Source: Acidobacteriaceae bacterium (GTDB taxonomy: Bacteria; Acidobacteriota; Terriglobia; Terriglobales; Acidobacteriaceae). From it: a DNA stretch of 46,293 bases. Below are positions 2,148-45,830 of this stretch, in pieces (position 1 is the stretch's first letter; each line of letters begins with the position of its first letter). The translations under genes and the position numbers were made by a program. Below the pieces are notes generated by a model that was not told the DNA's origin, searched no databases, and saw nothing but the letters and a program-made list of their open reading frames with translations. The stretch spans positions 1 through 46,293 of the forward strand of contig JANXUR010000099.1 of the NCBI GenBank assembly GCA_025356095.1. Reading direction: 5' to 3'.

Positions 2148-2184
2148 ATGACTTGTTCTGCAAAGGTATGACTTGTTCTGCAAA
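2148..2184. repeat. Tandem duplication, 17-bp identical core, period 20
   Basis: ATGACTTGTTCTGCAAA occurs at 2148-2164 and again at 2168-2184. It lies directly upstream of the chosen start of the M16 peptidase gene, in the divergent intergenic region. Confidence 0.9.
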
Positions 2185-2298
2185 AACCGACTGTATCTGC
2201 GCAACGGCTGGCCGGGTAGAGGGCTGGGTGGCTAGCTGGGTTACGCCTCTATTAGATTGTGGCACACTTGTGATGGGTGCAAGGCTAGTAAATGGTGA

Positions 2299-2943
2299 AT
2301 GAAATCAATGACTTACGGCGTTGACAAAGAATTGCGCACGGTGATGGAGGTGCCACCATACCTTACGGGGCTGGCGCAAAGGGCGTTGCCACGGCTGGAT
2401 TTTGCCGACGCATTTGCCATTTCGCTGCCTTTGGAGGCGAATCTGGACTTTACGCACGTGGCGATCGTGGGTTGGCAGGCCTGTCCGGGTTGGGTGCATC
2501 GGGCGATGCAGATTCGCGATGCCCTCGTGGGGCGGGTGGGGCTGAAGACAGGGCTGAAGACAGGGCCGATGACAGTGAAGCCTGTGGAGGCGGATGCCCT
2601 AATCAATCTGGAAGGTGACGAGATGGAGCGGGCTTTGCGTGCGCTGAATCCGCAATTTAGCGCCGACGGAGATGAGATGCTGGTGGGCATGGACGATATG
2701 CATTTGGATTTTCGGGTCTCGCTGTTGCGGCAGCGAGATGCCAGCGCCACGCGGTTCACAGTGACGACGCTGGTGCAGTTCCGCAATTGGCTGGGTCGAG
2801 CCTACTTTGTGCCGGTGGGGATTGGGCACAAATGGGTGGTGCGAGCCATGATGCGCGCGCTGCGAGAACGGCTGGTCGCGGAGTGCACAACCGATCCGCA
2901 CGATTCGCAGGGAGCGCTGGGTTTTTCGGGAGGCGTAAGATGA
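2299..2943 (+). CDS. DUF2867 domain protein
   Basis: A 214-residue protein with the layout of DUF2867: an N-terminal segment with DFADAFAI, a central LDFRVSLL strand, and the C-terminal VTTLVQFRNWLGRAYF helix-forming stretch. Function is unknown; in other genomes the domain sits alone or behind NAD-binding oxidoreductases. The gene ends in an ATGA overlap with rlmN, indicating translational coupling. Residues GLKTGLKTGPMT come from a 12-bp in-frame tandem repeat at 2539-2574. The start could be the ATG at 2299 or 2308; no strong ribosome site separates them. Confidence 0.75.
   Translation: MKSMTYGVDKELRTVMEVPPYLTGLAQRALPRLDFADAFAISLPLEANLDFTHVAIVGWQACPGWVHRAMQIRDALVGRVGLKTGLKTGPMTVKPVEADALINLEGDEMERALRALNPQFSADGDEMLVGMDDMHLDFRVSLLRQRDASATRFTVTTLVQFRNWLGRAYFVPVGIGHKWVVRAMMRALRERLVAECTTDPHDSQGALGFSGGVR
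2539..2574. repeat. 12-bp in-frame tandem repeat, three units
   Basis: GGGCTGAAGACA at 2539-2550 is repeated exactly at 2551-2562 and in altered form at 2563-2574. It lies inside the DUF2867 gene, giving the residues GLKT-GLKT-GPMT without shifting the frame. Confidence 0.9.
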
Positions 2944-4187
2944 CGACGATACAAGCGGCTCCTCGTGCGCTGCTAGGGATGGACCTAGCCGAACTCACCG
3001 CGCTCATGGCGGGTTTGGGCGAAAAGAGTTATCGCGCCAAGCAGCTATTCACCGGGCTTTACGTGCAGAAAGTGGATTCGCTAGAGGCGATCTCCACCCT
3101 GCCGAAGGAACTGCGGCAAAAGCTGACGGATGACGGTTGGGTGGTTGGTCTTCCGAAGCTGGCAAAGCGATTTGTGTCGGTGGATGGTACGGTGCGGTAT
3201 CTTGTGGAGCTGGCCGACGGCATGACGGTGGAAACCGTGTGGATGCCGGAAGGCGACGGCGGCGAGCAGGGGGACGGGAGCGAGGCCGCCCAAGAAGAAA
3301 GCACACTCGGCGACGAGGCCATTCTGCTGTTCGACGAGGCCGACCCGCTGTTGGGCAAGCGCAGCGAGGTGAAAGACGCTCGCGACCGTTATGCCGTCGC
3401 GGCTGCTCCGCCGCCGGCAAAGTCCTTTCGCCGCGCCACCATTTGTGTTTCCAGCCAAGTGGGGTGTGCGGTGGATTGCCAATTCTGCCTGACGGCGGCT
3501 CTGGGCGTGAAGCGCAACCTAACGGCAGGGGAGATTGCCGGGCAGGTGATTGCGGTGCTGAACGACCACGGCGTAGCGCCGCCGGAGACTCGCATCAATC
3601 TGGTCTTTATGGGCATGGGCGAGCCATTTCTGAACTACGCGAACTTTATGCAGTCGGTGCGGGTGATGGTTGAAGGTGTCGGTATACCAGCGTCGCGGAT
3701 GACGGTTTCCACCTCGGGCATTGTGCCGCGCATTGACGAGTTCAGCCGCGAAACCATCCGTCCCAAGCTGGCGATTTCGCTGAATGCATCGAATGAAGCC
3801 ACCCGCACCGCCATTATGCCCATCACCAAGAAGTGGACGGTGGAGATGCTGATTGCCGCAGCGCGGGCGTATCCGCTGAGGCCACGCGAGTGGGTGACCT
3901 TTGAATATGTTCTGCTGCGCGGCGTGAATGACACGCTAGAGCACGCCCGCGAAGTGGTGCAACTGGTCAAAGGCATCTACTGTAAGGTGAACTTAATCGC
4001 GCTGAATCCTGGGCCGGGGATTGCGTTTGCTACGCCCGAGCGCGAGGATGTGCTGGCATTTCAGCAGTTGCTCATCAAGGCCGGCATCCCCACCTACGTG
4101 CGCCGCCCACGCGGCCGCGACATCTACGCCGCCTGCGGGCAGTTGAAGCGGACTGAGGAATTGGTCGGCATCGAGAGCGCACAATAG
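2940..4187 (+). CDS. rlmN: Dual-specificity 23S rRNA/tRNA adenine C2-methyltransferase RlmN
   Basis: Radical-SAM enzyme that methylates A2503 of 23S rRNA and A37 of some tRNAs. The [4Fe-4S]-binding CxxxCxxC is C176-AVD-C180-QF-C183, and the C-terminal methyl-carrying cysteine is C399 in YAACGQL. FMGMGEP and NLIALNPGP are also typical. The ATG at 2940 overlaps the previous stop by four bases and gives MTTIQAAP, which fits family N-termini better than a longer upstream frame. At 415 residues it is longer than usual: residues about 106-161 form an acidic, Gly/Ala/Glu-rich insertion between the N-terminal accessory domain and the radical-SAM core. Confidence 0.95.
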   Translation: MTTIQAAPRALLGMDLAELTALMAGLGEKSYRAKQLFTGLYVQKVDSLEAISTLPKELRQKLTDDGWVVGLPKLAKRFVSVDGTVRYLVELADGMTVETVWMPEGDGGEQGDGSEAAQEESTLGDEAILLFDEADPLLGKRSEVKDARDRYAVAAAPPPAKSFRRATICVSSQVGCAVDCQFCLTAALGVKRNLTAGEIAGQVIAVLNDHGVAPPETRINLVFMGMGEPFLNYANFMQSVRVMVEGVGIPASRMTVSTSGIVPRIDEFSRETIRPKLAISLNASNEATRTAIMPITKKWTVEMLIAAARAYPLRPREWVTFEYVLLRGVNDTLEHAREVVQLVKGIYCKVNLIALNPGPGIAFATPEREDVLAFQQLLIKAGIPTYVRRPRGRDIYAACGQLKRTEELVGIESAQ

Positions 4188-4232
4188 ATATTACTTGCCC
4201 TCGTTGGGCCGAGCATTTAGTCTGACTGCGCT

Positions 4233-6443
4233 ATGAAAACCTCCTTCACGTTTCTTTCGTTCGCCGCTGCGTTCCTGTTGCAGATGGCAGGCTTTCTGTT
4301 TGCGCAATCGTTCACCCTGCAACAAGTGCTCAGTGCGCCGTTCCCCGACGGTCTGGTTGCGGCTGACACCGGTCGCATCGCATGGTTTGTAGACGCGAGG
4401 GGTGTGCGGAATATCTGGGTCGCCGACGGGCCGGACTACACGCTGGCAGGCGGACCCGGCGCAGCCCGACAGCTCACCCACTACACCGAAGACGACGGCC
4501 TGCCCATTGCCAGTCTGCGCATTACACCCGACGGCACAACGCTGGTTTATGTGCGCGGCTCAGAGGCAAGTGGAGAGGGTGTGATTGCGAATCCTCGCAA
4601 TCTCGCTCATGCGTTGAAGCAACAGGTGTTCGCCGTGACCGCAGCCGGTGGTGAGCCACGCTTGCTGGGAGAAATGGGCTGTCCGGAGGAGGGCTGCGAG
4701 GATGTACAGCTTTCTCCTGACGGCAAGTGGGCGGTATGGGCTGCAAAGAAGCAATTGTGGATCGCCTCGCTTCGAGGCGTTGCCGTTAAGGGGACCGCCC
4801 CAGCACTTAAGCAGTCTGCCGGTTTGGCGAAAGCGCTGACGGAGGTCCGTGGCGCGAACTCGCAGCCGAAATGGTCACCGGACGGCCGATATCTCGCATT
4901 CGTTTCAGACCGTGGCGATCATAGCTGGGTGGCCGTGCTCGAACTGCACCGACCTCGCGCCAAGAGCTCATCTGGCCCGGGCAGCGGCCCAGTCCGCTAT
5001 TTAGCCGCCACCACGGGCCGTGACGGTTCACCCCGGTGGTCGCCCGACGGCAGGTACATTGCCTTTATTCGTCTTGCCGGCAGCACGCGCGACGATGCGA
5101 TGATTCCGGTGATGCCACAGCCATGGGCCATTTGGCGAGCTGATGTCACTACGGGAGAGGGCAGGGAACTCTGGCACAGCGGTGACGCCGACCGCGATTC
5201 GCTCCCGGGCTGGACCGCCGATGGCTCGTTCTACTGGAGCGCCGATGACCGCATCGTTTTCGCCAGTGAGCAAGATGGGCAGAACCATGTTTACTCAATT
5301 GCCGCCGGGGGTGGCCCGCAAACGCTGCTGACTCCCGGCGCTTTTGATGTGGAGCAGGTCACACTTTCCCACGACCGCAAGACGGTGATTTACACATCGA
5401 ATCAGGACGACATCGAGCGCCGCCACATTTGGCGCGTGGCCGCAGCGGGAGGTGTTCCGCAAGCGGTGACAAAGGGCTTGTCCGCCGAGTGGAGCCCCAC
5501 CGAAGTTGTCAGCAACCACACGTCACAAATCATCTGCCTCGGCTCCACTGGGACGACGCCTGCAATGCCCTATGCAATTACCCCCAGCGGCGACCGCAAA
5601 CTGATTGCGGCGAGCAGTCTGCCCCGGAATTTTCCGGATGGCCTGGTCACGCCGCAGATTGTCACCTTTCCATCAGAAGATGGCCTCACGATTCATGGCC
5701 AGCTGTTTTTGCCGCCCCCGGGTAAGGGCAACGGTGCGGGACTCATCTTTACCCACGGCGGCCCGATTCGCCAGATGATGCCCGCATTCCATTACATGGA
5801 CTACTACCACAACGCCTACGCCATGAATCAATACCTGGCGAGCCGGGGCTACACCGTTTTGTCAGTGAACTATCGCCTTGGAATCATGTATGGCCGGGCC
5901 TTTCGCGAGGCAAGGAATGGCGGTTGGCGTGGCTCGTCGGAATACCAGGACGTGGTCGCCGGGGCGCGGTATTTGCAGCAGGTTCCGGGCGTGGATGCCA
6001 GAAAATTGGGCCTGTGGGGCGGATCGTATGGTGGCTTGTTGACTGCGCTGGGGTTGGCGCGCAACTCCAACATTTTTGCTGCGGGTGTGGATTTTCATGG
6101 CGTCCACGATTGGTCGGCGTACGTAGGAGCCGCACTGCGGCCCGATAGACCGGCAGCACCGGATGCCAAGAACGCTCGCGAACTGGCGCGTCAATCGTCG
6201 CCGGTTGCTGACGCGGATCACTGGCAGTCGCCGGTATTGTTCGTCCACGGAGATGACGACCGCAATGTGGAATTTAGTCAGACTGTGGACTTGGCTGAGC
6301 GGCTGCGCCGACGTCATGTGGCGTTTGAAGAGTTGATCTTTCCGGATGAAATTCACGGCTTTCTGCTTTACCAGAACTGGATCAAGGCCTATCTGGCGAC
6401 CGAGGATTTTTTTGACCGTAAGCTGTTGAGTAAACGACCTTAG
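4233..6443 (+). CDS. Secreted S9 family prolyl-oligopeptidase-like serine peptidase
   Basis: A 736-residue exported peptidase. Residues 1-25 are a signal peptide ending FLFAQ. Residues about 40-470 contain WSPDGRY(L/I)AF-type repeats of a TolB-like beta-propeller. Residues about 490-736 are the alpha/beta-hydrolase domain. The catalytic triad is visible: S598 in GGSYGG, D676 in HGDDDRNV, and H708 in DEIHGF. The substrate is probably short peptides in the periplasm or outside the cell. The gene stands 45 bases after rlmN. The architecture matches acylaminoacyl-peptidase/dipeptidyl-peptidase relatives; substrate preference cannot be read from the sequence. Confidence 0.93.
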   Translation: MKTSFTFLSFAAAFLLQMAGFLFAQSFTLQQVLSAPFPDGLVAADTGRIAWFVDARGVRNIWVADGPDYTLAGGPGAARQLTHYTEDDGLPIASLRITPDGTTLVYVRGSEASGEGVIANPRNLAHALKQQVFAVTAAGGEPRLLGEMGCPEEGCEDVQLSPDGKWAVWAAKKQLWIASLRGVAVKGTAPALKQSAGLAKALTEVRGANSQPKWSPDGRYLAFVSDRGDHSWVAVLELHRPRAKSSSGPGSGPVRYLAATTGRDGSPRWSPDGRYIAFIRLAGSTRDDAMIPVMPQPWAIWRADVTTGEGRELWHSGDADRDSLPGWTADGSFYWSADDRIVFASEQDGQNHVYSIAAGGGPQTLLTPGAFDVEQVTLSHDRKTVIYTSNQDDIERRHIWRVAAAGGVPQAVTKGLSAEWSPTEVVSNHTSQIICLGSTGTTPAMPYAITPSGDRKLIAASSLPRNFPDGLVTPQIVTFPSEDGLTIHGQLFLPPPGKGNGAGLIFTHGGPIRQMMPAFHYMDYYHNAYAMNQYLASRGYTVLSVNYRLGIMYGRAFREARNGGWRGSSEYQDVVAGARYLQQVPGVDARKLGLWGGSYGGLLTALGLARNSNIFAAGVDFHGVHDWSAYVGAALRPDRPAAPDAKNARELARQSSPVADADHWQSPVLFVHGDDDRNVEFSQTVDLAERLRRRHVAFEELIFPDEIHGFLLYQNWIKAYLATEDFFDRKLLSKRP

Positions 6444-6483
6444 GCACGGGCGTCGGGTTGTTCTTCCGTTCTGTGCCGGGAGT

Positions 6484-9007: not shown

Positions 9008-9030
9008 TTTACGGTTCATTGCGGGAATTT

Positions 9031-9048
9031 ATGGCACTTTTGTGCCAT
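9031..9048 (+). promoter_or_regulatory. Palindrome downstream of the response regulator
   Basis: ATGGCAC-TTTT-GTGCCAT forms a 7-bp stem with a four-base loop, 23 bases after the regulator's stop. It may be an operator for the pilin genes or a weak terminator; there is no T-run after it. Confidence 0.3.
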
Positions 9049-9187
9049 GCCCTTCCCAATGGTGCTATTTGCAAACTGCCCCGGTGGACGTAGCCTTACT
9101 TCAGGAAAGTTCACCTGTGCGGCGACCACTAGCGCCATCCTTCGCGGATGATGCGGGCGGACGGAGGGTGGAACGAGGCCTTCGTAT

Positions 9188-9358: not shown

Positions 9359-9513
9359 CATTCGGCGCTGTGCAGGCGCAACGACGATTCTCTTCCTTCC
9401 CCCGTAACTATTGCCCTCCGCCTTGATTGGCGAAGGTGACGTTGATCAGCAAGCGGCCACCTAGAGCTGCGCTGATGCCGTGGTGGTGTTTTTGTTCTTA
9501 AAGGGGTGTTCAC

Positions 9514-9678: not shown

Positions 9679-9700
9679 CGGCCAATTCCTGCTGCAGAGC

Positions 9701-10216: not shown

Positions 10217-10239
10217 ATACTTAGGTTCTACCGGATTTC

Positions 10240-13729: not shown

Positions 13730-13825
13730 ATTCTGTGCCTTTCCGCGCGAAGCGGTAAGCCCGCACTAGAGGGATTGCGCTGCGGGCGTGTGCTGGTGGG
13801 CGCATGTCGAGATTCCGTCAGATGC

Positions 13826-13903
13826 TTCGAGACTATCATCCGAGACTATCATTCGAGACAATGATTCGAGACAATGATTCGAGGCAATGATTCGAGACCA
13901 TTA
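13826..13903. repeat. Six tandem 13-bp units
   Basis: Six contiguous units of TTCGAGACAATGA and variants occupy 13826-13838, 13839-13851, 13852-13864, 13865-13877, 13878-13890 and 13891-13903. Units 3 and 4 are identical; the outer units differ by one to three bases. The array lies between the divergent SDR and LON-domain genes, about 40 bases upstream of a -10-like TACAAT at 13944-13949. Confidence 0.92.
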
Positions 13904-14592: not shown

Positions 14593-14597
14593 CAGGC

Positions 14598-14621: not shown

Positions 14622-14630
14622 TGTAAGTTA

Positions 14631-14667
14631 CTCCTGAACTACTCCTGAACTACTCCTGAGCTACTCC
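14631..14667. repeat. 11-bp tandem repeat overlapping the holB stop codon
   Basis: CTCCTGAACTA at 14631-14641 is repeated exactly at 14642-14652, with a one-base variant at 14653-14663 and a partial unit to 14667. The TAG stop of holB (minus strand, 14661-14663) lies inside the third unit. Confidence 0.9.
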
Positions 14668-16019
14668 AACGACGCGGCAAACGCATCCAGTGAGAGAGAA
14701 CGCAGCAGGTTACGTCGCATTCCACGGCGGACTTCACCCAGTCCGGTAGCAGCCCGTTCTACCCAGCCAAAGTTAGTCGCCGTCGCAAGCCTCTTGAGCT
14801 CACCTTGTATGTCAGTATTTCTAATCCGATGCGCAGCACCGTGTTGCAGAAATAGCAGGTCTTCGAGTATCGAGTACATTGCCGCCATTAGCTGTTCGGT
14901 CTTTTCGCGGCCATCTGCCCCGGCGCGGAATCGTTCGGTGGTTTGGAATAGCTGGGTATGCTCGCCGTCGGAAGTAGCGGACCGCAACACAGTAAGTGCG
15001 TCGGCGCGCGCGGCGGTGTAGGTTGCCAAATCAAAGCTGCGGGCGCGCCCAATCGCACCTTGCGCCAGCCGGGCCACCAGCGCGCGCTGCCGTGCATCCC
15101 ACTGCGGCTGCGAGTGGCTAAGGTCAGCTTCTAGCTGAGCTACGGTCAGTGGTGCTAGAGTCAGCGTTACGCAACGCGACCGAATCGTTGGCAATAGTTC
15201 GCTGGCATTTTCAGTGAGTAAGATAATAGTGGCATGGGCTGGCGGCTCCTCCAGTACCTTCAGCACGGAGTTAGCTGCCTCTTTGATAAAGCCCGAGGTG
15301 GTAAGGATGTAGACACGGCGTCCGCGTTCGGGAACAAAGCGCACACTCTCGATGATCCTGCGAATCTGATCTACCTTAATCAGCATCTGCGGCGGGTCGG
15401 GTGGCACAATGATCAAGTTGGGGTGCGGCTGTAGCAGAATTCGAGTTTCTTTCTTCTCTGAATCCTTCAAGGCCTCCCGCGCCTCAACTGCTTCGGCAAA
15501 GCGTGCGGCAAAGTCGTCGGCCAATCCAATTTGGCGGCAGGAGGGGCAAACGCCGCAAAAATCTGGCAAGCCATCAGGGTTGGGAACGTAGGCCGCAGCG
15601 GGTTCACTTATGTAGGCAGGCGAGGGCGCGGCAGAAACCTCGGCCTCAACTTGTTCTTCCTCTTCTGCAACGGGCGCAGGTGCCTCGGCTGGTTCGGGTG
15701 CCATGTCGCCAAACAGGCTGTCTCCGAACAAGCTCATAGCCACAGGCTCAGGCGGCTTCTGGGTTGTGGCTGGCTTCGCTGGCTTGGCCTTCTTGGCTGG
15801 GGCGGGCGTTGGCGGAGCTTGGGGCAATAGTGCACGAGCCGCAATTTCTGCCGCTTCGCAGTTCATCGTCTTGGCCAGCATGGTGGCCAGCAGATATTTG
15901 CCGGAGCCTTCCGGGCCGCTCAGGATGATTGCATGCGGCAACCGACCGGCTGCGAGCGTGCGCCGCAGCCGGGCAACTACCTCAGTGTTTCCCTGGAATA
16001 AGTCGAATCCCATCTCCAC
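14661..16019 (-). CDS. holB: DNA polymerase III delta-prime subunit (clamp loader)
   Basis: A 452-residue AAA+ clamp-loader subunit. Walker A is GPEGSGK at residues 35-41; the sensor-1 region is YILTTSGFIKEAANSVLKVLEEPP; the SRC motif is IRSRC. It loads the sliding clamp with the tau/gamma and delta subunits. The zinc module is C53 and C155-x2-C158-x2-C161. Between C53 and C155 lies an insertion of about 95 residues rich in Pro/Ala/Lys and then Glu, including SLFGDSLFGD. This makes the protein about 100 residues longer than usual. The gene lies 80 bases after homoserine dehydrogenase on the same strand. GTG at 16019 or ATG at 16013 could start it. Confidence 0.9.
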   Translation of the reverse strand: MEMGFDLFQGNTEVVARLRRTLAAGRLPHAIILSGPEGSGKYLLATMLAKTMNCEAAEIAARALLPQAPPTPAPAKKAKPAKPATTQKPPEPVAMSLFGDSLFGDMAPEPAEAPAPVAEEEEQVEAEVSAAPSPAYISEPAAAYVPNPDGLPDFCGVCPSCRQIGLADDFAARFAEAVEAREALKDSEKKETRILLQPHPNLIIVPPDPPQMLIKVDQIRRIIESVRFVPERGRRVYILTTSGFIKEAANSVLKVLEEPPAHATIILLTENASELLPTIRSRCVTLTLAPLTVAQLEADLSHSQPQWDARQRALVARLAQGAIGRARSFDLATYTAARADALTVLRSATSDGEHTQLFQTTERFRAGADGREKTEQLMAAMYSILEDLLFLQHGAAHRIRNTDIQGELKRLATATNFGWVERAATGLGEVRRGMRRNLLRSLSLDAFAASLE

Positions 16020-18119: not shown

Positions 18120-18275
18120 GATTCTCTCCCTTAATTATTTCAATTTTTCGCCCGCTGCGTCAGGTGCATTCCTTTGTGGAGAGCGGCTATAGGCCTAGCT
18201 TTTCCACCCGGATTCGCATCACCCAACGTCGAGTTCTCAGCGTATTCCGGGCAACGGCAGCAGGTCTGTTCCATT

Positions 18276-18327
18276 GTGGACACGTGCGTGTGGACACGTG
18301 CGTGTGGACACGTGTGGACACGTGCGG
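18276..18327. repeat. 14-bp tandem array with a 10-bp short unit
   Basis: GTGGACACGTGCGT at 18276-18289 and 18290-18303 is followed by a shortened GTGGACACGT (18304-18313) and GTGGACACGTGCGG (18314-18327). Each full unit contains the palindrome CACGTG. Confidence 0.92.
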
Positions 18328-18360
18328 AATTCCGAGGCAATCTGTGCCCGCGGAATGAAC

Positions 18361-18400
18361 TTTTGCGTCCTTTTGCGTCCTTTTGCGTCCATTGGCGTCC
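18361..18400. repeat. 10-bp tandem array, three exact units plus one variant
   Basis: TTTTGCGTCC occurs three times without interruption at 18361-18390. It is followed by a variant unit ATTGGCGTCC at 18391-18400. Confidence 0.93.
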
Positions 18401-18733
18401 ATTTGACTTTAGGATAGCTTGCGATCGCGCCGACGAGGTAGCATTCCCCCCCGGCACTCGCCCAGCGAATTGAGAATGGTGCTTGCCTTAGCCTGCAACT
18501 TGCTGGATAATAGAGTTTTGCGTCTCTCTCTGAGCTGGAAGTGTGTTCGGGAAGAGCGCGAGCTGTAGCGAGCAGAATTTGCACGGGCGATCGAAAAACG
18601 AGCATTCGCTGGTAAGCAGTCTCTCAGGTACCTTGCTGTTATGCCCAGAGAAGGCGGAAGCTGTGGCCACGCGAGATGCGGACATTCGTAGAAGCGCTTG
18701 CAAAAGTTTTTTCAGGATAGGGAGCATAGTTTC

Positions 18734-19358: not shown

Positions 19359-20018
19359 ATGCCCTGCGTGGCTGAACACCAAGCTGCACACCAAGCTGAA
19401 CACCAAGTGGAAGAGTTCATCACCATCGCGCGGGTGGCCAAGACGCAAGGCAGAATTGGCGAAGTCGCCTGCGACCTGTACACCGACTTTCCAGAGAAGT
19501 TCGCCGAGCGCAAGCGGCTGTTCGCCATGCCCGGCGCCGGGTTGAAGCCGGGACAGCAGCGGCGCGAACTGCAACTGGAAAGTCATTGGCTCCACTCGAC
19601 TGTGAAAGCGGCTGGTGGAAAAGAGCGTGTCGTGCTGAAGTTCGCGGGTGTGGATTCCATCACCCAGGCTGAAGAGTTACTGGGCTGCGAAATTCAGATT
19701 CCAGCCAGCGAACGGGCTGAACTGGAGTCGGGCGCAGCGTATCTGAGCGATTTGGCAGGATGCGTGGTGCTGGAGAGTGGCCAGCGGGTTGGCGTGATTC
19801 GCGACTTGGAGTTTGGCGCCGGCGATGTGCCGGTTCTGGTGGTGGAAGGTAGCGAGGGGCAAGAAATTCTGATTCCCTGGGCCAACGAATTTGTGGAGCG
19901 GTTTGACCTCGCGGCGCGCGAAATGCACATGGTGCTTCCCGAAGGCTTGCTGGAGATTAACGCACCGGGCAAGAAGGAATCTGGCGACAAGCGGGAGAAA
20001 CCCCCCACCCAGGCGTAG
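19359..20018 (+). CDS. rimM: Ribosome maturation factor RimM
   Basis: A 219-residue protein that helps mature the 30S head and binds S19. The N-terminal barrel reads ITIARVAKTQGRIGEVACDLYTDFPEKF; the C-terminal PRC-like barrel is AYLSDLAGCVVLESG ... ILIPWANEFVERFD. The first ~20 residues are unusual: AEHQ-AAHQ-AEHQ derives from a 12-bp tandem repeat at 19371-19406. The C-terminal ~20 residues are a charged Lys/Glu tail. The start at 19359 gives tight spacing after khpA; a GTG at 19368 is also in frame. Confidence 0.94.
   Translation: MPCVAEHQAAHQAEHQVEEFITIARVAKTQGRIGEVACDLYTDFPEKFAERKRLFAMPGAGLKPGQQRRELQLESHWLHSTVKAAGGKERVVLKFAGVDSITQAEELLGCEIQIPASERAELESGAAYLSDLAGCVVLESGQRVGVIRDLEFGAGDVPVLVVEGSEGQEILIPWANEFVERFDLAAREMHMVLPEGLLEINAPGKKESGDKREKPPTQA
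19371..19406. repeat. 12-bp in-frame tandem repeat at the rimM 5' end
   Basis: GCTGAACACCAA at 19371-19382, a one-base variant at 19383-19394, and an exact copy at 19395-19406 encode AEHQ-AAHQ-AEHQ immediately after the start of rimM. Confidence 0.93.
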
Positions 20019-20079: not shown

Positions 20080-20889
20080 GTGAAAGCAGAACTGATCACA
20101 ATCTTCCCCGAGTTCTTTCATGGTCCGCTGGAACACGGGATTATGCGCAAGGCGCAATTGGCCGGGCTCGTTGAGTACCGGGTTTGCGACCTGCGAGAGT
20201 TTACGCACGACCGGCATCGCACCGTGGATGACCGTCCTTTTGGGGGCGGGGAAGGCATGGTGCTAAAGCCAGAACCCATCTTCGAGTGTCTCGAAGCTCT
20301 GGATGTGGCATCGCGGGAACAGCGTATGCAGCCGGGTGCGCGGGAGTCGGTGATTCTGCTTTCCGCGCAAGGTCAGCGGTTCGACCAAAGCGTGGCGCAA
20401 GAGTTGGCCGCGCTTGACCGCTTGGTGCTGATTAGCGGTCGTTACGAAGGTGTGGATGAGCGGGTGGCAGAGCACTTAGCCGACCGCGAGCTTTCCATCG
20501 GCGACTTTGTGTTGAGTGGCGGTGAGCTGGGCGCGCTGGTGATTTTGGACGCGGTGACGCGGCTGATTCCCGGAGCGCTAGGCAACGAAGCCTCCGCCAA
20601 GCAAGAAAGCTTTAGTGCGCTAGAGCAAGATGCGGGCCAGCAAGCGAATTCCACCTGCGGGTCGGGCGGATTGCTGGATTATCCGCACTATACGCGGCCA
20701 GCAGAGTTTCGCGGATGGCCGGTGCCGGAAGTGCTTTCTTCCGGGAACCATGACTTGATCCGGCGTTGGCGCCGGCGCAAGGCGCTGGAAAAGACGGTGC
20801 GCAACCGTCCTGACCTGCTGGAGCGGGTGGTGCTAAGCGACGAAGACCGCGAGTTAGTGGAAGCGATTACGCGGCAGAATTTGCACTAG
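20080..20889 (+). CDS. trmD: tRNA (guanine-37-N1)-methyltransferase
   Basis: A 269-residue SPOUT methyltransferase that makes m1G37 and prevents frameshifting. Visible motifs: ITIFPEFF at the start; [17 protein letters not shown]; the trefoil-knot SAM site [17 protein letters not shown] and [21 protein letters not shown]; and the C-terminal [24 protein letters not shown]. The start is a GTG at 20080. It lies in the rpsP operon between rimM and rplS. A 15-bp tandem duplication includes its stop codon. Confidence 0.96.
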
Positions 20890-20904
20890 CAGAATTTGCA
20901 CTAG
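20875..20904. repeat. Exact 15-bp tandem duplication including the trmD stop codon
   Basis: CAGAATTTGCACTAG at 20875-20889 (the last five codons of trmD including TAG) is repeated without any change at 20890-20904. Confidence 0.95.
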
Positions 20905-21329: not shown

Positions 21330-21719
21330 GCTCTGCGGTCGGCGGGCTCGGCTTTGAGGCGATGTTGTCCGTGGTTGACGGGCGTTCTGCGTTCTCGCCG
21401 CCGATGCAAATGTGTTTAACAGGCTCCGCGCCCGCAGAGCCTGAACTCGATGCCTGCCAACCCCACATGGCAGTCTTGCCCTTTCCCGTTTCTTTGGGGC
21501 ACAACAGCGCAAATTTAGTTCGCGGCATTCGCTAGACTACCAAGTGCACAGAGGCATGAGTGGGTAGTGCGGGCAGCGCCGTACTCACCACAACCGACTC
21601 ACCACAACTTCTGCGGCAAGGCCGGGTTAAGACCCCTAAGCCGTGCTGTGCTCTTGCACAAAATCCCGGTCCTTTTGTTAACTGGTTGGCCGCTGTCGTC
21701 GAGTTTAAGGAGTTGTTGT
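21330..21719. other. Noncoding region between rplS and the phosphoesterase gene
   Basis: Nearly 400 bases without a credible gene. AGGCTCTGCGG at 21328-21338 is complementary to CCGCAGAGCCT at 21432-21442; the latter can instead form a local hairpin with AGGCTC at 21421-21426. A 14-bp tandem pair lies at 21583-21610. A ribosome site AAGGAG (21707-21712) for the next gene ends the region. Confidence 0.5.
21583..21610. repeat. 14-bp tandem pair
   Basis: ACTCACCACAACCG at 21583-21596 is followed by ACTCACCACAACTT at 21597-21610, identical over the first 12 bases. It lies in the leader of the phosphoesterase gene. Confidence 0.85.
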
Positions 21720-23332: not shown

Positions 23333-23354
23333 TATAGGTAGAGTATAGGTAGAA
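23333..23354. repeat. 11-bp tandem pair
   Basis: TATAGGTAGAG at 23333-23343 is followed by TATAGGTAGAA at 23344-23354, directly between the phosphoesterase stop and its terminator stem. Confidence 0.85.
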
Positions 23355-23384: not shown

Positions 23385-23535
23385 GTTGCTTTCAAACTGC
23401 ACATACGCTTTCAAATTTCGCCAAGGCTGCCCCAAGGCTGTCCCCAAGGCACCGCGAATAATTTCCACAGCAAGAGCCCACCATGTTCGTGCGATGATTC
23501 CAGCTATGGCGTTGGGCAGGGTACAGCCAACCGTG

Positions 23536-27720: not shown

Positions 27721-28317
27721 CTACTTCTTCTCGTTGTTGGCTGGCTTCTTGTCTGCCGCAGCTTTGGGCTCTTCCGACCACGGGGGTGTTACGCCAACCA
27801 TGCGGGCATAAGCGATGGATTGGCCTAAATGCTCGGCGCAGTGCCGCGTCATAAACAGCAGGATGCCGCGATAGGTGTTCTTGCCACCAAACCAGTCAAG
27901 CTGCTTTTCCACGTCCGCGTCTGGCATGTTGGTGACCGCAGTGCGCACGTGCGCGAATGAATCCTTCAGCGCGGCGACGATCTTGGCCTTGTCGGTAGTG
28001 GTGGTGTCGTAACCCTTGCCGTTGAACCCGGCAGGCGGCGCCACGCCGAGAGCCTTGGGAATATTGAAGTTCGCTGCGGCGATGTGCAGGTAGACTTCTG
28101 CGATGGAACGCACGCCCGGTGCCGGACGCCACGAGTATTTGTCAGCGGGCACCGCTTCGGCCAGACCTACGATGCGCGACTCCAGCGTGCCGTACTCGCC
28201 GAGGAATTCGCCGCGCGGGCCGGCAGGAACCTTGGCCGTGGCTTGCCCCCACGCCACGCCAACCATAACTGAAAACAGCGCAAGGCCCACCACGAATGCA
28301 AGACGCGATTTGTACAC
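27721..28317 (-). CDS. Exported DinB-family protein
   Basis: A 198-residue protein. The start is the GTG at 28317 with a GGGGAGG ribosome site five bases upstream, which places a signal peptide (SRLAFVVGLALFSVMVGVAWGQ) at the N-terminus; the much longer open frame crosses a repeat array and is rejected. The rest is a four-helix DinB/YfiT-like domain: VPADKYSWRPAPGVRSIAEVYLHIAAANF, then RHCAEHLGQSIAYARM. Histidines at the family's metal positions are present. The function of exported DinB proteins is unknown. The C-terminus is Lys/Ala-rich. It is the first gene of an operon with the peroxiredoxin-like gene. Confidence 0.87.
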   Translation of the reverse strand: MYKSRLAFVVGLALFSVMVGVAWGQATAKVPAGPRGEFLGEYGTLESRIVGLAEAVPADKYSWRPAPGVRSIAEVYLHIAAANFNIPKALGVAPPAGFNGKGYDTTTTDKAKIVAALKDSFAHVRTAVTNMPDADVEKQLDWFGGKNTYRGILLFMTRHCAEHLGQSIAYARMVGVTPPWSEEPKAAADKKPANNEKK

Positions 28318-28457
28318 GGCAACCTCCCCTACGATGTTTGGAACGCCGCACCTGCGGCACCCGTTTAGCATACACCGCCGTTTCCAGGGAACTGCGCGGC
28401 CGTCGCGCCGCACATCCACAACAATTGAGCCTTGCGCTTCGATGCGCCACCAAACCA

Positions 28458-28493
28458 GCCCTGCGGGCGGCCCTGCGGGCGGCCCTGCGGGCT
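28458..28493. repeat. 12-bp tandem array, three units
   Basis: GCCCTGCGGGCG at 28458-28469 and 28470-28481 is followed by GCCCTGCGGGCT at 28482-28493. Confidence 0.93.
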
Positions 28494-28526
28494 GCACAAT
28501 ATCACGGCGCTTCACCCAGAGCTTGC

Positions 28527-28662
28527 GCCCCGGGCTAGGGACAGGGATCGCCGCTCCCCGGCTTGCATCTGCGTGAGCGGGAACCGACCGGTGTCCCATT
28601 CAAGCGCGCCTTTCGCTTGAGTGGGTTGGGAACGCCGCCTCGGCGATCCCGTTGCCCCGGGC
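28527..28662. repeat. Compound inverted repeat (nested hairpins)
   Basis: Outer arms share GCCCGGG and GGGATCGCCG (28527-28553) in reverse complement at 28641-28662. Inside them CCCATTCAAGCG (28595-28606) pairs with CGCTTGAGTGGG (28614-28625), a 12-bp stem with one G-U pair and a seven-base loop. This nested layout resembles mobile or dispersed intergenic palindromic elements. It may also fold in RNA upstream of the VCBS gene. Confidence 0.65.
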
Positions 28663-38411: not shown

Positions 38412-38439
38412 GAATGGGCTTCCGCTCGACGTTCTGATT

Positions 38440-39288: not shown

Positions 39289-39316
39289 GTTATCAGTGTA
39301 GCGCGGAGTGGCGTGA

Positions 39317-39346
39317 GGCGGGAGCGCCCTTGGCCGCTCCCCCGCC
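39317..39346. promoter_or_regulatory. GC-rich inverted repeat between divergent rlmB and LytTR genes
   Basis: GGCGGGAGCG at 39317-39326 pairs with CGCTCC-CCCGCC at 39335-39346 with one or two bulged bases. It lies in the shared promoter region of two divergent genes; an operator or simple hairpin are both possible. Confidence 0.3.
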
Positions 39347-39404
39347 GCTCTCCCCGCCCAACCCGCGCCTCTTATATACTTCTTTCCAGCCTCAGGAGTG
39401 GCCC

Positions 39405-40226: not shown

Positions 40227-40409
40227 CGCCTCCTTGTGAGCCGAGCTGGTGAAGCCAAGTTAAAACCGGCGAACCGGAGATGTGCTTGAGGAGAGGAGGC
40301 TTCTTACTCCCCGATTCGCCGTCCTTATCGGTGTGGGTCCCACCGATCTTGCTCGTCGCGGCCCGCTTGCTGTGGGCGCGGACGAAATTCCGAAAATCTT
40401 GCGATTCTG

Positions 40410-41192: not shown

Positions 41193-41398
41193 GTGCGGCC
41201 TTCTCTCCTCAGCAGAAGATGAAAGCACGTTAGGGGCCGAACCTCTGGATTAACGAAAATCGTCGAAAATTGTGGTTTTGGTTCCGGGTTGGAACGCGAC
41301 GGTTCCGTTGCGGAACTAGGGGCGAGCGCCGACTCTGCCCAAGTGACGAAAGTTGTCACATTCCGGCAGCAGTTTTGGGCAGTTGGCCCTGGGCGCCT

Positions 41399-41434
41399 CT
41401 CGAAGTACCGCTCGAAGTACCGCTGGAAGTGCCG
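41399..41434. repeat. 12-bp tandem array, three units
   Basis: CTCGAAGTACCG at 41399-41410 and 41411-41422 is followed by the variant CTGGAAGTGCCG at 41423-41434, between the end of uppS and the start of the Crp/Fnr gene. Confidence 0.93.
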
Positions 41435-41484
41435 CTCTGGCCGATTGTGCCTCGGCAAGGACTGGGATCGGGCTGGCGGTCCTA

Positions 41485-42309
41485 CTACTTTTTCTTGGAG
41501 GTCTTCTTGGTGTCGCTTGCCTTATCCGCCGGGCCTAAGCCGCCGTATCTGCGCTCGCGCTTTTGGAATTCGGCGATGCTGGCGAGTAGGTTTTCGCCAC
41601 GAAAGTCCGGCCAGAGGGTGGGTGTCACCAGAATTTCGGCATAGGCCAGTTGCCAGAGCAGGAAGTTCGAGAGGCGCATCTCGCCGCTGGTCCGGATCAC
41701 CATGTCAGGGTCGGGCAGGGCGCTGGTGTAGAGATTTTCGTTGATGGTGGCTTCGTCAATATCGTCGAGCTTGAGGTGCGTGAAGCCGCCATTTCGCTGC
41801 GCCTTGCTGACGATCGCGCGGAAGGCGTCTACCAGTTCGCTGCGTCCACTGTAGTTGAGCGCGAGGGTAAGCACCATGCCCGTGCATTTCGCGGTAGCAC
41901 CACGGACCTCTTCCATGCGCTGCTGCACGTCTGCGGGCAGTTCCTGCTGGCGGCCGATGTATTCCAGGCGAACGTTATTTTGCAGCAGTGTGGGCAGTTC
42001 GAGCTTGAGGTAGCGCCAGAGCAGGCGCATCAAGAAGGTGACTTCGCCTTTGGGGCGCTTCCAGTTTTCTTCCGAAAAAGCGTAAAGCGTGAGCGCGGGG
42101 ATGCCGATGCGGGCGGCAGTTTCGAGCGTGGAACGCACGGCGGCGACTCCGGCGCGGTGTCCGGCGACGCGCGGCAAATGCCGCTGGCGCGCCCAACGTC
42201 CGTTGCCGTCCATTATGATGGCGATGTGTCGAGGAAGCTGGCCTGAATCGAGCAGGGCGAAGAGTTTCGCCTCGTCGCGGCTCAGACCCGCGGGAACTTT
42301 GGCCTGCAA
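41485..42309 (-). CDS. uppS: Undecaprenyl diphosphate synthase
   Basis: A 274-residue cis-prenyltransferase making the C55 lipid carrier for cell-wall synthesis. The catalytic D34 lies in IIMDGNGRWA, followed by GHRAGVAAVRSTLETAARIGIPALTLYAFSEENWKRP; the C-terminal DPDMVIRTSGEMRLSNFLLWQLAYAEI and LWPDF are diagnostic. The start is a TTG at 42309 with AAAGGGG five bases before it. The tail is Lys/Ser-rich. Its usual partner cdsA is not next to it. Confidence 0.95.
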   Translation of the reverse strand: MQAKVPAGLSRDEAKLFALLDSGQLPRHIAIIMDGNGRWARQRHLPRVAGHRAGVAAVRSTLETAARIGIPALTLYAFSEENWKRPKGEVTFLMRLLWRYLKLELPTLLQNNVRLEYIGRQQELPADVQQRMEEVRGATAKCTGMVLTLALNYSGRSELVDAFRAIVSKAQRNGGFTHLKLDDIDEATINENLYTSALPDPDMVIRTSGEMRLSNFLLWQLAYAEILVTPTLWPDFRGENLLASIAEFQKRERRYGGLGPADKASDTKKTSKKK

Positions 42310-42448
42310 ACGTAACCCCTTTGTACTGCAAAAAGGATATTACACCCGCAAGGCTTGGGGAAAGGGCGGCGGGAGAGGCCGTGTACCCAAGGGTGCAAGC
42401 CCACCTAAATCCCGGAAAACGTGCGGAATACAGGTGGCACCGGTGGGG

Positions 42449-44857
42449 TTATTTTTTCACCACCATTGTCGCGCCTGCATATGCGACGGCTCTGTCGGCA
42501 GCGGTGGTGGCTTCGCCGCCCGTGCCGTGGTTTGCGCTGACGATCACCACGTGGAAGGTGCGGGTTTTCATCATGCCAGTGAAGGTGCCTTTTCGCTCGC
42601 CGATGGTTAGCGTTTGGGACTTGTCATCCCACGTGAGCGGGATGGTGGCGTAGGCACCTTGCTCGTAGCGGTAGCTGTCGCCCTCGTCTTCGTAGAGGGT
42701 GAAATGGCCGTCGGCACCGGGATAGATGCGCAGTTCGACGATGTTATCGGCGTCTGCCACCTTCTGGCTGGTGTACTCGATGCCCGGACCCATGGGCACA
42801 ATAGAACCGGCCCGGACGTACAGCGGCATACGATCGAGCGGTGCAGGAGCATCGAGCGTGTGGCCACCTTCGAGGGAGGCTCCGGTGTAGAAGTCGTACC
42901 AAGTGGTGTTGGGCAGATATAGGTGACGGGTCGTGGCACCCGGCTCGGTTACGGGATTCACTAGAAACGCCGGGCCGTACAGGAACTGGTCGCCCAAGCT
43001 GAGTACGCGCGGGTCGCTAGGAAAGTCCATCACGAGGGGTCGCATGGGTGTGTAGCTGTTGCTGGTGACCTGCCACGCCAGAGAATAGATGTAGGGCATC
43101 AGGCGGTAGCGCAGGCGGTCGTAAGTGACCAATATCTTCTGCACATCCGGGCCGTACGACCAGAGTTCATTCTGGTTGGTGGTGCGGGTGCCGTGGACGC
43201 GGAAGATGGGACAAAACGTGCCGAACTGGAACCAGCGGCTAAAGAGTTCGCGGTAAGCAGGGTCGTCGGGATTGCCAGAGACGAAGCCTCCGATGTCGGT
43301 CGTCCAATAGGGGATGCCGGAGAGCGCGAAGTTGAGCCCTGCAGGCACTTGGCGTTTGTAGCTTTCCCAGTCGGAATTGATGTCGCCCGACCATGCGGTG
43401 ACTCCGTTGCGCTGGCTGCCAGCAAAGGCGCTCCGCGAAAGGATGAACACACGCTTGTCGCTACTTGTCGTGCGCTGGCCTTCATAGACGGCGGCGGTGG
43501 TGTTCAGCGGAAATAAGTTGACGTAGCGGTCGCCGCTACCGATGGCCAATTGATGATGCAGCTGGATGTTGTCCTCTTGGCCTTCAGTCTCGGGTTCTGT
43601 CGTGTCCATCCACCAGGCGTCCACGCCGTTGCCATTGGTGCCCAGGCCGAAGAGCGCCTTTTCCATCAAGTGCCAATAATACTTGCGAGCTTCGGGATTG
43701 CTGGCGTCGTATACGGCCATCTGGTCAGCATGGTAGGGCGGCTTGGGCATCTTGGTCTTGTCAATGAACCAGCCGCGCGAATCCATCTCGGCGTATTCCT
43801 TCGAGCCGGGTTCGAAGAACGGCCACACGGAAAGCATCAGGTGAAAGTTTTCGGCGTGCAGGGTGTCGAGCATGGCGCCGGGGTCAGGATAGTGCGAATT
43901 AAACACGTGCTCGCCCTTGCGATTCCACCAGAACCAATCCTGGACGATGTTGTCCACTGGAATGTGCAGATCGCGATACTTCTTGGCGACAGCGAGTATT
44001 TCTTCTTGCGACGAATAGCGATTCTTGCACTGCCAAAATCCGTAGGCCCACTTGCCAAACATCGGCGCTTGCCCAGTCAACTCGCGGTAGCTGGCGACGA
44101 CGTGGTCAAGTTCGGGGCCATAAAGAAAGTAGTAGTCAACCTCGTCGGCGACCTCTGACGAGAGGTAAAGGTAGTGCAGAAAGCGATTGTTCATGCGGCT
44201 GCGCGAGGTGTTGTTCCAATAGACTCCCCATCCCTTGCTCGACACCAGCAGCGGCACGGCGATGTTGGTGTTGTCCTGTGAGATGTCCACCGACTCGCCG
44301 CGATAGTTGAAGACGCCAGCTTGGTGCTGGCCGAGTCCGTAAAGCGCTTCGGGAGAACCATAAATGTTGAGAAAGCTTTCGGCGCGGTAGGTGTACTCGC
44401 CGTTGACCTCGACGGGCGTAAGGCTGCGTCCGCCATCGAGAAGCAGCTGCTGGTTCGCGTTGTCGCGATAGGTGATGGTGCCGTCGGTGCGATGCACGCT
44501 GATGGTGAGCTTGGCGGTGGTCAGGGTGATTTCATCGTTGGCAAAGTGCATCTGCCACGGAGTGGCGGGCCACGATTGCTTGATGATCACATAGTGGGGC
44601 TTTTCGCTAAATTTCTCCGACGCGGAATAGCGCACCCGAATGATGGAGTCCGAGCACACCTGCAGTTGCATTGTGCCCCTCGCCATGTGGAAGGTGATGC
44701 CGTTGGCATCGCGGTCGAAGCTGGAGACCGGATTGAGCGACTGCCATTGCGCGGACGCGGGCGTGATTGCGCCCAACAAAAGGACAAACAAGAGGGCGAA
44801 CAAGAGGGCGACCACGGCGGAAGAGAAGACGCGGATACTTCTGGGGCGTGGGCACAT
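42449..44857 (-). CDS. Secreted GH31 glycosidase (alpha-xylosidase/alpha-glucosidase-like)
   Basis: An 802-residue exported enzyme. The signal peptide (about 1-36, ending ASAQ) contains ALLF-ALLF-VLLL from a 12-bp repeat. An N-terminal galactose-mutarotase-like domain precedes the (beta/alpha)8 barrel. The nucleophile is D418 in DAWWMDTTEPE and the acid/base D492 in WSGDINSDW. The C-terminal beta domains include a DUF5110-like segment (RIYPGADGHFTLYEDEGDSYRYEQG). The DAWWMD-T-TEP form is seen in alpha-xylosidases acting on xyloglucan fragments, but alpha-glucosidase activity cannot be excluded. It is divergent from the cyclase gene, with an operator-like palindrome 21 bases before its start. 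Confidence 0.92.
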   Translation of the reverse strand: MCPRPRSIRVFSSAVVALLFALLFVLLLGAITPASAQWQSLNPVSSFDRDANGITFHMARGTMQLQVCSDSIIRVRYSASEKFSEKPHYVIIKQSWPATPWQMHFANDEITLTTAKLTISVHRTDGTITYRDNANQQLLLDGGRSLTPVEVNGEYTYRAESFLNIYGSPEALYGLGQHQAGVFNYRGESVDISQDNTNIAVPLLVSSKGWGVYWNNTSRSRMNNRFLHYLYLSSEVADEVDYYFLYGPELDHVVASYRELTGQAPMFGKWAYGFWQCKNRYSSQEEILAVAKKYRDLHIPVDNIVQDWFWWNRKGEHVFNSHYPDPGAMLDTLHAENFHLMLSVWPFFEPGSKEYAEMDSRGWFIDKTKMPKPPYHADQMAVYDASNPEARKYYWHLMEKALFGLGTNGNGVDAWWMDTTEPETEGQEDNIQLHHQLAIGSGDRYVNLFPLNTTAAVYEGQRTTSSDKRVFILSRSAFAGSQRNGVTAWSGDINSDWESYKRQVPAGLNFALSGIPYWTTDIGGFVSGNPDDPAYRELFSRWFQFGTFCPIFRVHGTRTTNQNELWSYGPDVQKILVTYDRLRYRLMPYIYSLAWQVTSNSYTPMRPLVMDFPSDPRVLSLGDQFLYGPAFLVNPVTEPGATTRHLYLPNTTWYDFYTGASLEGGHTLDAPAPLDRMPLYVRAGSIVPMGPGIEYTSQKVADADNIVELRIYPGADGHFTLYEDEGDSYRYEQGAYATIPLTWDDKSQTLTIGERKGTFTGMMKTRTFHVVIVSANHGTGGEATTAADRAVAYAGATMVVKK
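44781..44816. repeat. 12-bp in-frame tandem array in the GH31 signal peptide
   Basis: AGGACAAACAAG (44781-44792), AGGGCGAACAAG (44793-44804) and AGGGCGACCACG (44805-44816) encode, on the minus strand, repeated leucine-rich units of the signal-peptide core. Confidence 0.8.
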
Positions 44858-44878
44858 GGGGGCAGCTCTCCGGGTAAC

Positions 44879-44901
44879 GGCAAAGTAAAGGTTTACTTGC
44901 C
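44879..44901. promoter_or_regulatory. Operator-like inverted repeat upstream of the GH31 gene
   Basis: AAGTAAA-GG-TTTACTT (44883-44898) is a 16-bp palindrome that extends to GGCAA...TTGCC with one bulged base. It lies between the divergent GH31 and cyclase genes. Its TAAA(G/C)GTTTA core resembles LacI-family operators, which often control glycosidases; no LacI-family gene is in the window. Confidence 0.45.
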
Positions 44902-44991
44902 AGCGATTTTAGCGCAAGTAGCGGCCGCCGTTAGCATAAGATGCTTGGCGAAGGCTAAATCAAAATTTTAAGCGGACGGCTGGGGAGAAAT

Positions 44992-45759
44992 ATGGCGAAG
45001 TGGGGATGCGTTCACGGATTGTCTTTGGGACTGGCGCTGCTGGCGGGCACTGCGGCGACGGCGCAGAACATGCAGGACATGCGCGACAAGCACGACAAGC
45101 GCGACAAGCGCGACAAGCACGACAAGTGGATTGACGTAACCGCGCCGCTCGATCCGGCGACGTTGCCGGTCTACACCGGCGACGTGCCGCTTACCATGGA
45201 GTTCAAGCTGGATATGCGTAAGGGCGACAAGGTTACCTACTCCACCATGGAGACGGGCATCCATTCGGGTACGCACATTGATGCGCCGATGCACTTCATC
45301 CGCGACGGCAAGAGCATTGACCAGATTCCGCTTACCACCTTCATGGGGCCGGTGCGGGTGATTGACATTGCGGCGGATGCCCCTGCGGTGACGGCGGCGG
45401 AGTTGAACAAACACACGTGGAAGGGTGCCACGCGCATCTTCTTCCGAACCGGCAACAGCCACGGCGGCGGCATGGCCGACGTCCACTTCAACCAGCAGTT
45501 TGTGTACATTGCGCCTGACGCGGCGCAACTGCTAGCCGATGCGGGCGTGGAACTGGTGGGAATTGACTACAACTCGGCGGAGAAGTTCCACTCTGACGTG
45601 CCGCGTACGCACCAGATTCTACTCGGCAAGGGAATTCCGATTGTCGAAGGGCTGGATCTGCGGGCAGTGACCGGCGGCGACTATGAGTTGCTGATGTTGC
45701 CCATCCCGATCATCGGACACGAGGCCGCGCCGGTACGGGCGCTGATGCGCAAGAAGTAG
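44992..45759 (+). CDS. Secreted cyclase-family protein (KynB-like metal hydrolase)
   Basis: A 255-residue exported protein. The signal peptide (about 1-24) ends TAATAQ. The family motif HSGTHIDAPMHF provides metal ligands H91, H95 and D97, as in bacterial arylformamidase (KynB) and isatin hydrolase. Later H-G-G-G and IDYNSAEKFHSDVPRTHQILL complete the site. Export argues against a role in cytoplasmic kynurenine breakdown; the substrate is unknown. Residues 31-45 are RDK-HDK-RDK-RDK-HDK, the product of a 9-bp tandem array. A GGGGAGAAAT ribosome site precedes the ATG. Confidence 0.9.
   Translation: MAKWGCVHGLSLGLALLAGTAATAQNMQDMRDKHDKRDKRDKHDKWIDVTAPLDPATLPVYTGDVPLTMEFKLDMRKGDKVTYSTMETGIHSGTHIDAPMHFIRDGKSIDQIPLTTFMGPVRVIDIAADAPAVTAAELNKHTWKGATRIFFRTGNSHGGGMADVHFNQQFVYIAPDAAQLLADAGVELVGIDYNSAEKFHSDVPRTHQILLGKGIPIVEGLDLRAVTGGDYELLMLPIPIIGHEAAPVRALMRKK
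45082..45126. repeat. 9-bp in-frame tandem array, five units
   Basis: Units CGCGACAAG and CACGACAAG alternate at 45082-45090, 45091-45099, 45100-45108, 45109-45117 and 45118-45126, coding for the charged linker just after the signal peptide of the cyclase-family protein. Confidence 0.93.
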
Positions 45760-45779
45760 GTCGGCGTTCTGTGGGCAGA

Positions 45780-45830
45780 CTTGCACCGCAGTCTTGTACT
45801 GCGGTCTTACACCGCAGTCATACACCAGCG
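45780..45830. repeat. 13-bp tandem array, three and a half units
   Basis: CTTGCACCGCAGT (45780-45792), CTTGTACTGCGGT (45793-45805), CTTACACCGCAGT (45806-45818) and a related partial unit to 45830 lie between the cyclase-family gene and the RHS fragment. Confidence 0.88.

Follow-up and report, generated by a model that had tools for sequence, protein, structure and literature searches.

Excess of short tandem arrays with units near one helical turn across the genome of an Acidobacteriaceae bacterium

The window and the genome-wide excess of arrays

The stretch of DNA considered here (referred to throughout as 'the window') comprises 46,293 nucleotides of an Acidobacteriaceae bacterium, contig JANXUR010000099.1 of assembly GCA_025356095.1, and carries a series of short head-to-tail tandem arrays that form the subject of this report. 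It is contig 103 of a draft genome of 3,529,705 bases in 120 contigs, which we call G000. Otherwise the window is an ordinary chromosomal stretch: the ten proteins scanned include an RlmN-like protein, RimM, TrmD, a family-31 glycosidase and a cyclase-family protein, and 4 of its 42 called genes find a match of at least 50% identity in the loci of related genomes. Genes were called with a home-made procedure based on dicodon scores, such that gene starts are uncertain.

An earlier note, made from the letters of the window alone, had listed seventeen arrays (Table 1). Tandem Repeats Finder (TRF), run on the window at a minimum score of 30, returned 29 rows, which cover 15 of the seventeen at the places given for them; the remaining two, at 21583 and 36480, are visible but weak. 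When only exact tracts are counted (at least two copies, unit 9-15 bp), the window holds 11, set against a mean of 0.55 for units of 9-11 bp, and none longer, over 20 shuffled versions made under a dinucleotide model; for units of 7-8 bp the corresponding figures are 8 and 4.25.

Table 1. Tandem arrays of the window (positions as numbered in the window)
Position	Unit and copies	Context	Basis
2143..2184	20 bp x 2.1	overlaps start side of minus-strand open reading frame (ORF) 865-2265	TRF + ORFs
2539..2575	12 bp x 3.1	within DUF2867 gene 2308-2943; multiple of 3	TRF
13822..13898	13 bp x 5.9	intergenic; copies partly diverged	TRF
14629..14667	11 bp x 3.5	intergenic, extends to stop side of minus-strand ORF 14661-16019	TRF + ORFs
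18275..18328	14 bp x 2.9, then overlapping 10 bp x 2.8	intergenic	TRF
18360..18405	10 bp x 4.6	intergenic	TRF
19371..19407	12 bp x 3.1	5' end of RimM ORF 19359-20018	TRF + ORFs
20874..20904	15 bp x 2.1, exact	spans stop codon of TrmD gene 20080-20889	TRF
21583	14 bp x 2, copies alike at 12/14 by eye	weak; without TRF call	direct reading
23333..23353	11 bp x 1.9	intergenic by home-made gene calls	TRF
23421..23450	looser 11/12 bp, with indel		TRF
28458..28492	12 bp x 2.9, exact	upstream of called DinB_2 gene 27721-28317, within its longer ORF 27721-28599	TRF
36480	loose 12-bp pattern	weak; without TRF call	direct reading
41399..41437	12 bp x 3.2	intergenic by home-made gene calls	TRF
44775..44811	12 bp x 3.1	start side of family-31 glycosidase gene 42449-44815 (minus); multiple of 3	TRF
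45063..45126	9 bp x 7.1	near start of cyclase-family gene 45025-45759; multiple of 3	
45775..45826	13 bp x 4.0, 76% match	intergenic, 16 bp beyond gene end 45759	TRF

The excess of arrays is real and extends well beyond the window, which is not special within its genome (Table 2). We sampled G000 as the window plus 61 stretches from 41 other contigs (1,022,684 bases, 29% of the genome), and compared it with 26 related genomes (11-140 kb sampled from each, partly around genes chosen for searching), with 19 further MutS loci assigned to Acidobacteriota by MutS rank and record titles (a set that includes a Nevskia soli record, L145), and with 61 loci of other phyla. TRF was run here at a score of 50 for periods of 9-16 bp, a setting that is blind to two exact copies of less than 13 bp; the count of exact tracts demands one exact pair of copies, which in every set tilts it towards multi-copy arrays once copies begin to decay. 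By both methods G000 stands apart, whilst a shuffled copy of the whole sample (made once) yielded a single array. Array density against shuffled sequence and against other Acidobacteriota had been set beforehand as the test on which the idea might fall, and G000 lies above both. Values for single genomes are shaky (the 54 tracts per 100 kb of one relative, G009, come down to two tracts), and over the small 19-locus set the intergenic excess by TRF is only 2.5-fold. Arrays of 1-6 bp units are very rare in G000, yet they are not fewer there than elsewhere.

Table 2. Sampled sequence and array counts by set (TRF at score 50; periods 9-16 bp except in the last column)
Set	Intergenic nt	Genic nt	Exact intergenic tracts, 10-20 bp (per 100 kb)	Exact genic tracts, 10-20 bp	TRF per 100 kb, overall	TRF per 100 kb, intergenic	TRF per 100 kb, genic	TRF arrays with at least 2.8 copies	TRF arrays of 1-6 bp units
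G000	126,223	896,461	96 (76)	42	14.7	76.8	5.9	115/150	4 in 1.02 Mb (0.4 per 100 kb)
Relatives	146,904	1,266,063	14 (9.5)	12	2.9	16.3	1.3	16/41	1 in 1.41 Mb
19 loci	25,703	283,403	4 (15.6)	0	4.9	31.1	2.5	5/15	0 in 0.31 Mb
Other phyla	95,664	1,065,219	6 (6.3)	8	1.3	8.4	0.7	5/15	0 in 1.16 Mb
G000, shuffled					0.1

Unit length, reading frame and placement

Between genes, the unit lengths of exact tracts in G000 form one hump, mainly of 10-15 bp with its peak at 11-12 bp (8 tracts at 9 bp, 16 at 10, 25 at 11, 20 at 12, 12 at 13, 12 at 14, 7 at 15, 2 at 16 and 2 at 18), in keeping with the suggestion of the earlier note that about one helical turn is duplicated. The excess fades towards shorter units: 7-bp tracts are no denser in G000 than in the relatives (27 against 37), and for 8-bp tracts the density is about doubled (10 against 6). 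An apparent 14-bp peak in the relatives was set aside as being, by eye, in good part made of period-7 repeats. Intergenic arrays with this period of 7 bp, which also receive calls at 14 or 21 bp, lie in the relatives at L106:6950, L220:15983, L148:3370, L237:12112, L238:18500 and L133:15732; in some of these 7-bp arrays one position toggles between C and T, and some resemble, by eye, the TAACTGA-type heptamers of other phyla.

Within genes the spectrum is different, with 42 exact tracts at 9 bp, 31 at 12 bp, 8 at 15 bp and 3 at all other lengths of 10-20 bp. Among arrays with units of 10-20 bp, multiples of three account for 33 of 36 in genes against 28 of 78 between them (p = 1.3e-8), bearing out the claim of the earlier note that genic units keep the frame and that selection acts against frame-breaking events. 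The concentration at gene ends that it described is seen as well: of the 73 genic arrays with units of 9-20 bp, 30 fall within the first or final tenth of a gene (p = 4.6e-5, with gene starts uncertain). For in-gene 9-bp repeats the picture is divided, as two-copy repeats are not special to G000 (16 in 0.90 Mb, against 31 in 1.55 Mb of relatives), the excess being confined to multi-copy repeats (21 against 6).

The frame filter within genes, together with divergence between copies within arrays, speaks for genuine arrays on which selection has had time to act; such a combination would be hard to obtain from assembly errors. That the arrays are an artefact of assembly, or ordinary background, might be entertained given a draft in 120 contigs and some excess over shuffled sequence in other bacteria too; with an intergenic density about 5-8 times that of the Acidobacteriota sets (2.5 times by TRF against the small 19-locus set), we give this explanation very little credence.

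The placement of the arrays looks random. Over loci, the counts of the 78 intergenic arrays (units of 10-20 bp) fit a Poisson distribution (chi2/df 0.99, 60 df). Of these, 71 fall between two called genes, and they show no clustering within G000 gaps (5 gaps with at least two arrays, 5.9 expected) and no preference by gene orientation (78.8 per 100 kb in convergent, 59.2 in co-directional and 68.7 in divergent gaps, p = 0.67). The array units of G000 are also unrelated. Among 9453 unit pairs, 16 have a 10-mer in common; of 15 of these, 11 lie within one locus, and beyond these 16 no common unit sequence, of the short tandemly repeated repetitive (STRR) or TAACTGA type, was found. This agrees with the claim that a process, and not one repeat family, is at work, and random placement without orientation preference points in turn to a mutational process rather than an element.

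The same observations bear on two other explanations. Arrays maintained by selection, as regulatory or structural DNA, might be expected to sit between genes and at gene ends, as arrays of binding sites might, and a spacing of about a helical turn would place such sites on one face of the helix; with units that are unrelated, and a placement that is random and indifferent to gene orientation, we regard this as distinctly improbable. The arrays might otherwise be the footprints of transposon excision, that is, leftover target-site duplications, which in some transposon families are known to measure 9-14 bp. Such footprints would be marked by a fixed length, two copies and accompanying transposases, whereas in G000 the unit length varies continuously, copies often number more than two, and no DDE_Tnp_1 transposase, the only transposase family searched, was found; we consider this explanation scarcely credible.

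Seeding and growth of the arrays

What sets G000 furthest apart from its relatives is the share of arrays with many copies. Of 78 intergenic arrays in G000, 63 have at least 2.5 copies; for the relatives and the 19-locus set together the figure is 4 of 17. Mean copy numbers are 3.80 and 2.56 respectively, and TRF arrays show the same tendency (Table 2). Duplications of 10-17 bp occur in the relatives too, mostly as two copies. Arrays with 11-12 bp units make up 36 of 63 multi-copy intergenic arrays in G000 and 2 of 15 two-copy arrays (p = 0.003, and again p = 0.003 when the two-copy arrays of the relatives are added), although this length class was picked after the spectrum had been seen.

The manner in which copies differ is consistent with stepwise growth. 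Common variants in neighbouring copies, and blocks of two or three units, are seen at L131:1587, L274:1847 and L027:19047, and shared variants among adjacent copies with multi-unit blocks are the usual trace of repeated slippage. Separately, in two intergenic arrays of 8-10 copies (L275:8323 and L128:6228), the same few positions alternate between copies, by eye more regularly than simple decay would give. For the initial event we looked at homology beyond the unit in the 2-3-copy arrays of the relatives and the 19 loci, which amounts to 0-2 bp in 17 of 24; since homology-free duplication would give about 23 of 24 (by arithmetic from the matching probability), most of these 'seeds', but not all, look homology-free.

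Synthesising these findings, we propose a genome-wide mutational process in two steps, seeding followed by slippage growth that is unusually active in this lineage, and put its probability at roughly 0.55. In the first step, a stretch of about 10-18 bp of arbitrary sequence would occasionally be duplicated head-to-tail, mostly without flanking homology, an event that would also occur, at a lower level, in the relatives. Once two copies are present, strand slippage in replication or repair would then lengthen the array, at times by two or three units at once, with units near one helical turn (11-12 bp) growing best; it is this second step that would be unusually active, or unusually little corrected, in the lineage of G000. 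We suggest that the excess reflects a raised rate of growth rather than weak purging of existing arrays, and the helical turn itself may lie behind the 11-12 bp preference. Selection would remove frame-breaking events from genes, such that arrays stay at gene ends and between genes. The earlier note had offered slippage or error-prone repair as alternatives; this is refined here into two steps, of which seeding is also found in relatives and growth to at least three copies is special to G000.

Besides the late choice of the 11-12 bp class, several points weigh against this proposal. The comparison is with genomes outside the genus, such that copy-number change is deduced from the arrays. Homology of at least 4 bp is present in 6 of the 24 arrays mentioned above, more than expected, such that seeding is not purely homology-free, and in G000 itself the remainder lengths are broad, as either homology-driven seeding or the decay of third copies might produce. 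The requirement for an exact pair would also benefit the older arrays of G000 more. Only 4 of 86 genic tracts can be compared with a relative: two of these belong to a single array within a single gene and are opposite a gap in the sole relative that covers them, one has no gap in its sole relative, and the fourth, a 9-bp tract in Ku, has no gap in 30 of 30 relatives and is therefore rejected as an in-gene duplication, being no insertion. In conserved proteins (events of at least 3 residues) we count 99 insertions and 65 deletions in G000, a ratio of 1.5 that lies within the 0.26-2.8 of other genomes, and tandem-like insertions number 3 of 99 (two of these being a single site, counted against each of two relatives); in relatives the count is 12 of 864, and at control positions 9 of 963. 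Longer proteins are thus discarded as a footprint of the process, and the unexceptional insertion surplus implies either that the process mostly operates away from conserved protein cores or that its products are removed from them.

Candidate genes and known systems

Short tandem duplications and abundant intergenic repeats have been described elsewhere. The mechanism by which tandem repeats first arise from non-repeating sequence is called unknown in the available portion of one report (PMC6954433), which describes an Escherichia coli topoisomerase I allele, topA R168C, that produces de novo tandem duplications of 2-19 bp independently of existing repeats. Of the leads found in the literature, this is the strongest. 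The duplications are short and head-to-tail, as in G000, and have the same upper length range (exact intergenic units in G000 are mostly of 9-18 bp); independence from pre-existing repeats would apply to 17 of the 24 arrays of the relatives and the 19 loci, the remainders in G000 being broad. Saying this, R168C is a laboratory allele with a range of 2-19 bp, and the portion of the report at hand (PMC6954433) mentions no 11-bp optimum and reports no multi-copy arrays.

An altered TopA could, in principle, act as a duplication mutator that drives both seeding and growth. The length range and lack of homology in the R168C mutant resemble the seeds of these arrays (PMC6954433, as far as its accessible text goes), and an optimum at 11 bp would agree with the fact that a single linking number corresponds to a full turn of B-DNA. 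Against this, the TopA of G000 is present as a single copy (contig 72, minus strand, including 46427-47713), with an 887-residue open frame without stops and an ordinary family score (418.7 bits, where other model-spanning matches give 375-446), and the range of the E. coli mutant begins at 2 bp, whilst intergenic tracts of 7 bp are not raised in G000 and those of 8 bp only about two-fold. We consider a topoisomerase I mutator unlikely, though worth keeping in sight.

Genome-wide excess of longer-unit intergenic tandem repeats, as found in G000 relative to shuffled sequence and other genomes, has also been described for Methanococcus voltae, M. aeolicus and Natrialba magadii, in which intergenic repeats of 6-11 bp are over-represented (PMC4060949, from the part of the paper accessible); there the units reach up to 11 bp without an excess in protein-coding sequence, whereas those of G000 are mainly of 10-15 bp and are also found, in frame, within genes. 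Abundant short intergenic direct repeats are likewise a feature of the Beggiatoaceae, which carry the TAACTGA heptamer (PMC4679880, again from a partial text), but there one unit sequence is common to all, and in G000 the units are unrelated and of varied length.

The earlier note had also proposed a check of mismatch-repair and nonhomologous-repair genes. Mismatch-repair mutators resemble G000 in that indel formation is raised, but they mostly gain or lose single bases in homopolymer runs, or di- and trinucleotides in microsatellites (PMC6954433, same portion), and G000 keeps both mutS and mutL with open frames, such that loss of mismatch repair is not supported. The mutS open frame also carries two diverged 12-bp arrays in its 5' part (L034:11155-11301); most of their length precedes the point at which the MutS proteins of the 19 loci start matching (query residues 55-102).

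As to nonhomologous repair, a match to Ku is present in 33 of 41 genomes, in a single frame in 32 of these and split between two frames only in G000 (L072:9440-10301, contig 106, with the frame break near L072:9850). The split is caused by what is apparently one extra base in a run of T, and may be a fresh pseudogene or an error of the draft sequence. Error-prone end joining, or fill-in at staggered nicks (by Ku/LigD or gap-repair patches), would duplicate the stretch between the nicks, and could be reconciled with seeds that, in the relatives, mostly have no flanking homology and with the LigD polymerase domain that is present in G000. The signature of Ku/LigD end joining has both components intact, whereas here Ku is frameshifted, and active Ku-dependent end joining is accordingly not supported. 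Three relatives without Ku and LigD polymerase (G008, G012 and G020, 99-100% complete) have 3.1-5.7 tracts per 100 kb, five Ku-bearing relatives sampled over at least 80 kb have 1.2-5.0, and G000 has 16.0; array density does not track the presence or absence of Ku, which is therefore rejected as the cause, and since Ku-less complete relatives are not raised to the level of G000, Ku alone provides no explanation. Growth to 4-9 copies would, moreover, be left unexplained by end joining or fill-in, and we judge this route improbable.

Returning to the two-step process of seeding and slippage growth, we speculate, tentatively and with more doubt than conviction, that G000 may represent a naturally occurring tandem-array mutator that extends across its lineage. 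Some heritable change in the genus, for which an insertion in RecJ, topoisomerase I or the loss of Ku are candidates, would allow duplications of about one helical turn to become chromosome-wide arrays, through slippage tuned by the helical repeat of DNA, and so steadily lengthen intergenic regions and the ends of genes. In the 29% sampled, TRF finds 150 arrays of period 9-16 bp, and the relatives have far fewer. G000 thus offers a natural experiment, which at once yields the spectrum of unit lengths, the extent to which homology is required and the units that grow best, and which leaves few candidate genes to test. The growth optimum at 11-12 bp, if confirmed in more genomes, would link slippage to the helical repeat of DNA.

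RecJ and ExoVII stabilise tandem repeats in E. coli (a literature search gave no paper on exactly that). The family match of RecJ in G000 (contig 61, 57789-59522, minus strand) falls into two pieces, 141 in-frame bases apart, within one 630-residue open frame, and on its sequence the protein seems to carry about 47 extra residues near profile position 150. RecJ is matched in 23 of 26 genomes, of which one other (G027) is also matched in two pieces, near its C terminus. Two further losses were considered and rejected. The 5'-3' exonuclease (flap nuclease) domain of Pol I (polA) is present in G000, as in 28 of 28 genomes that are at least 90% complete and in 38 of 41 overall, and the large subunit of ExoVII (xseA) was found in 26 of 26 genomes, G000 included. 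The ExoVII large-subunit open frame of G000 itself holds a 12-bp array of 6.5 copies (L278:16298-16375), sitting upstream of the family match.

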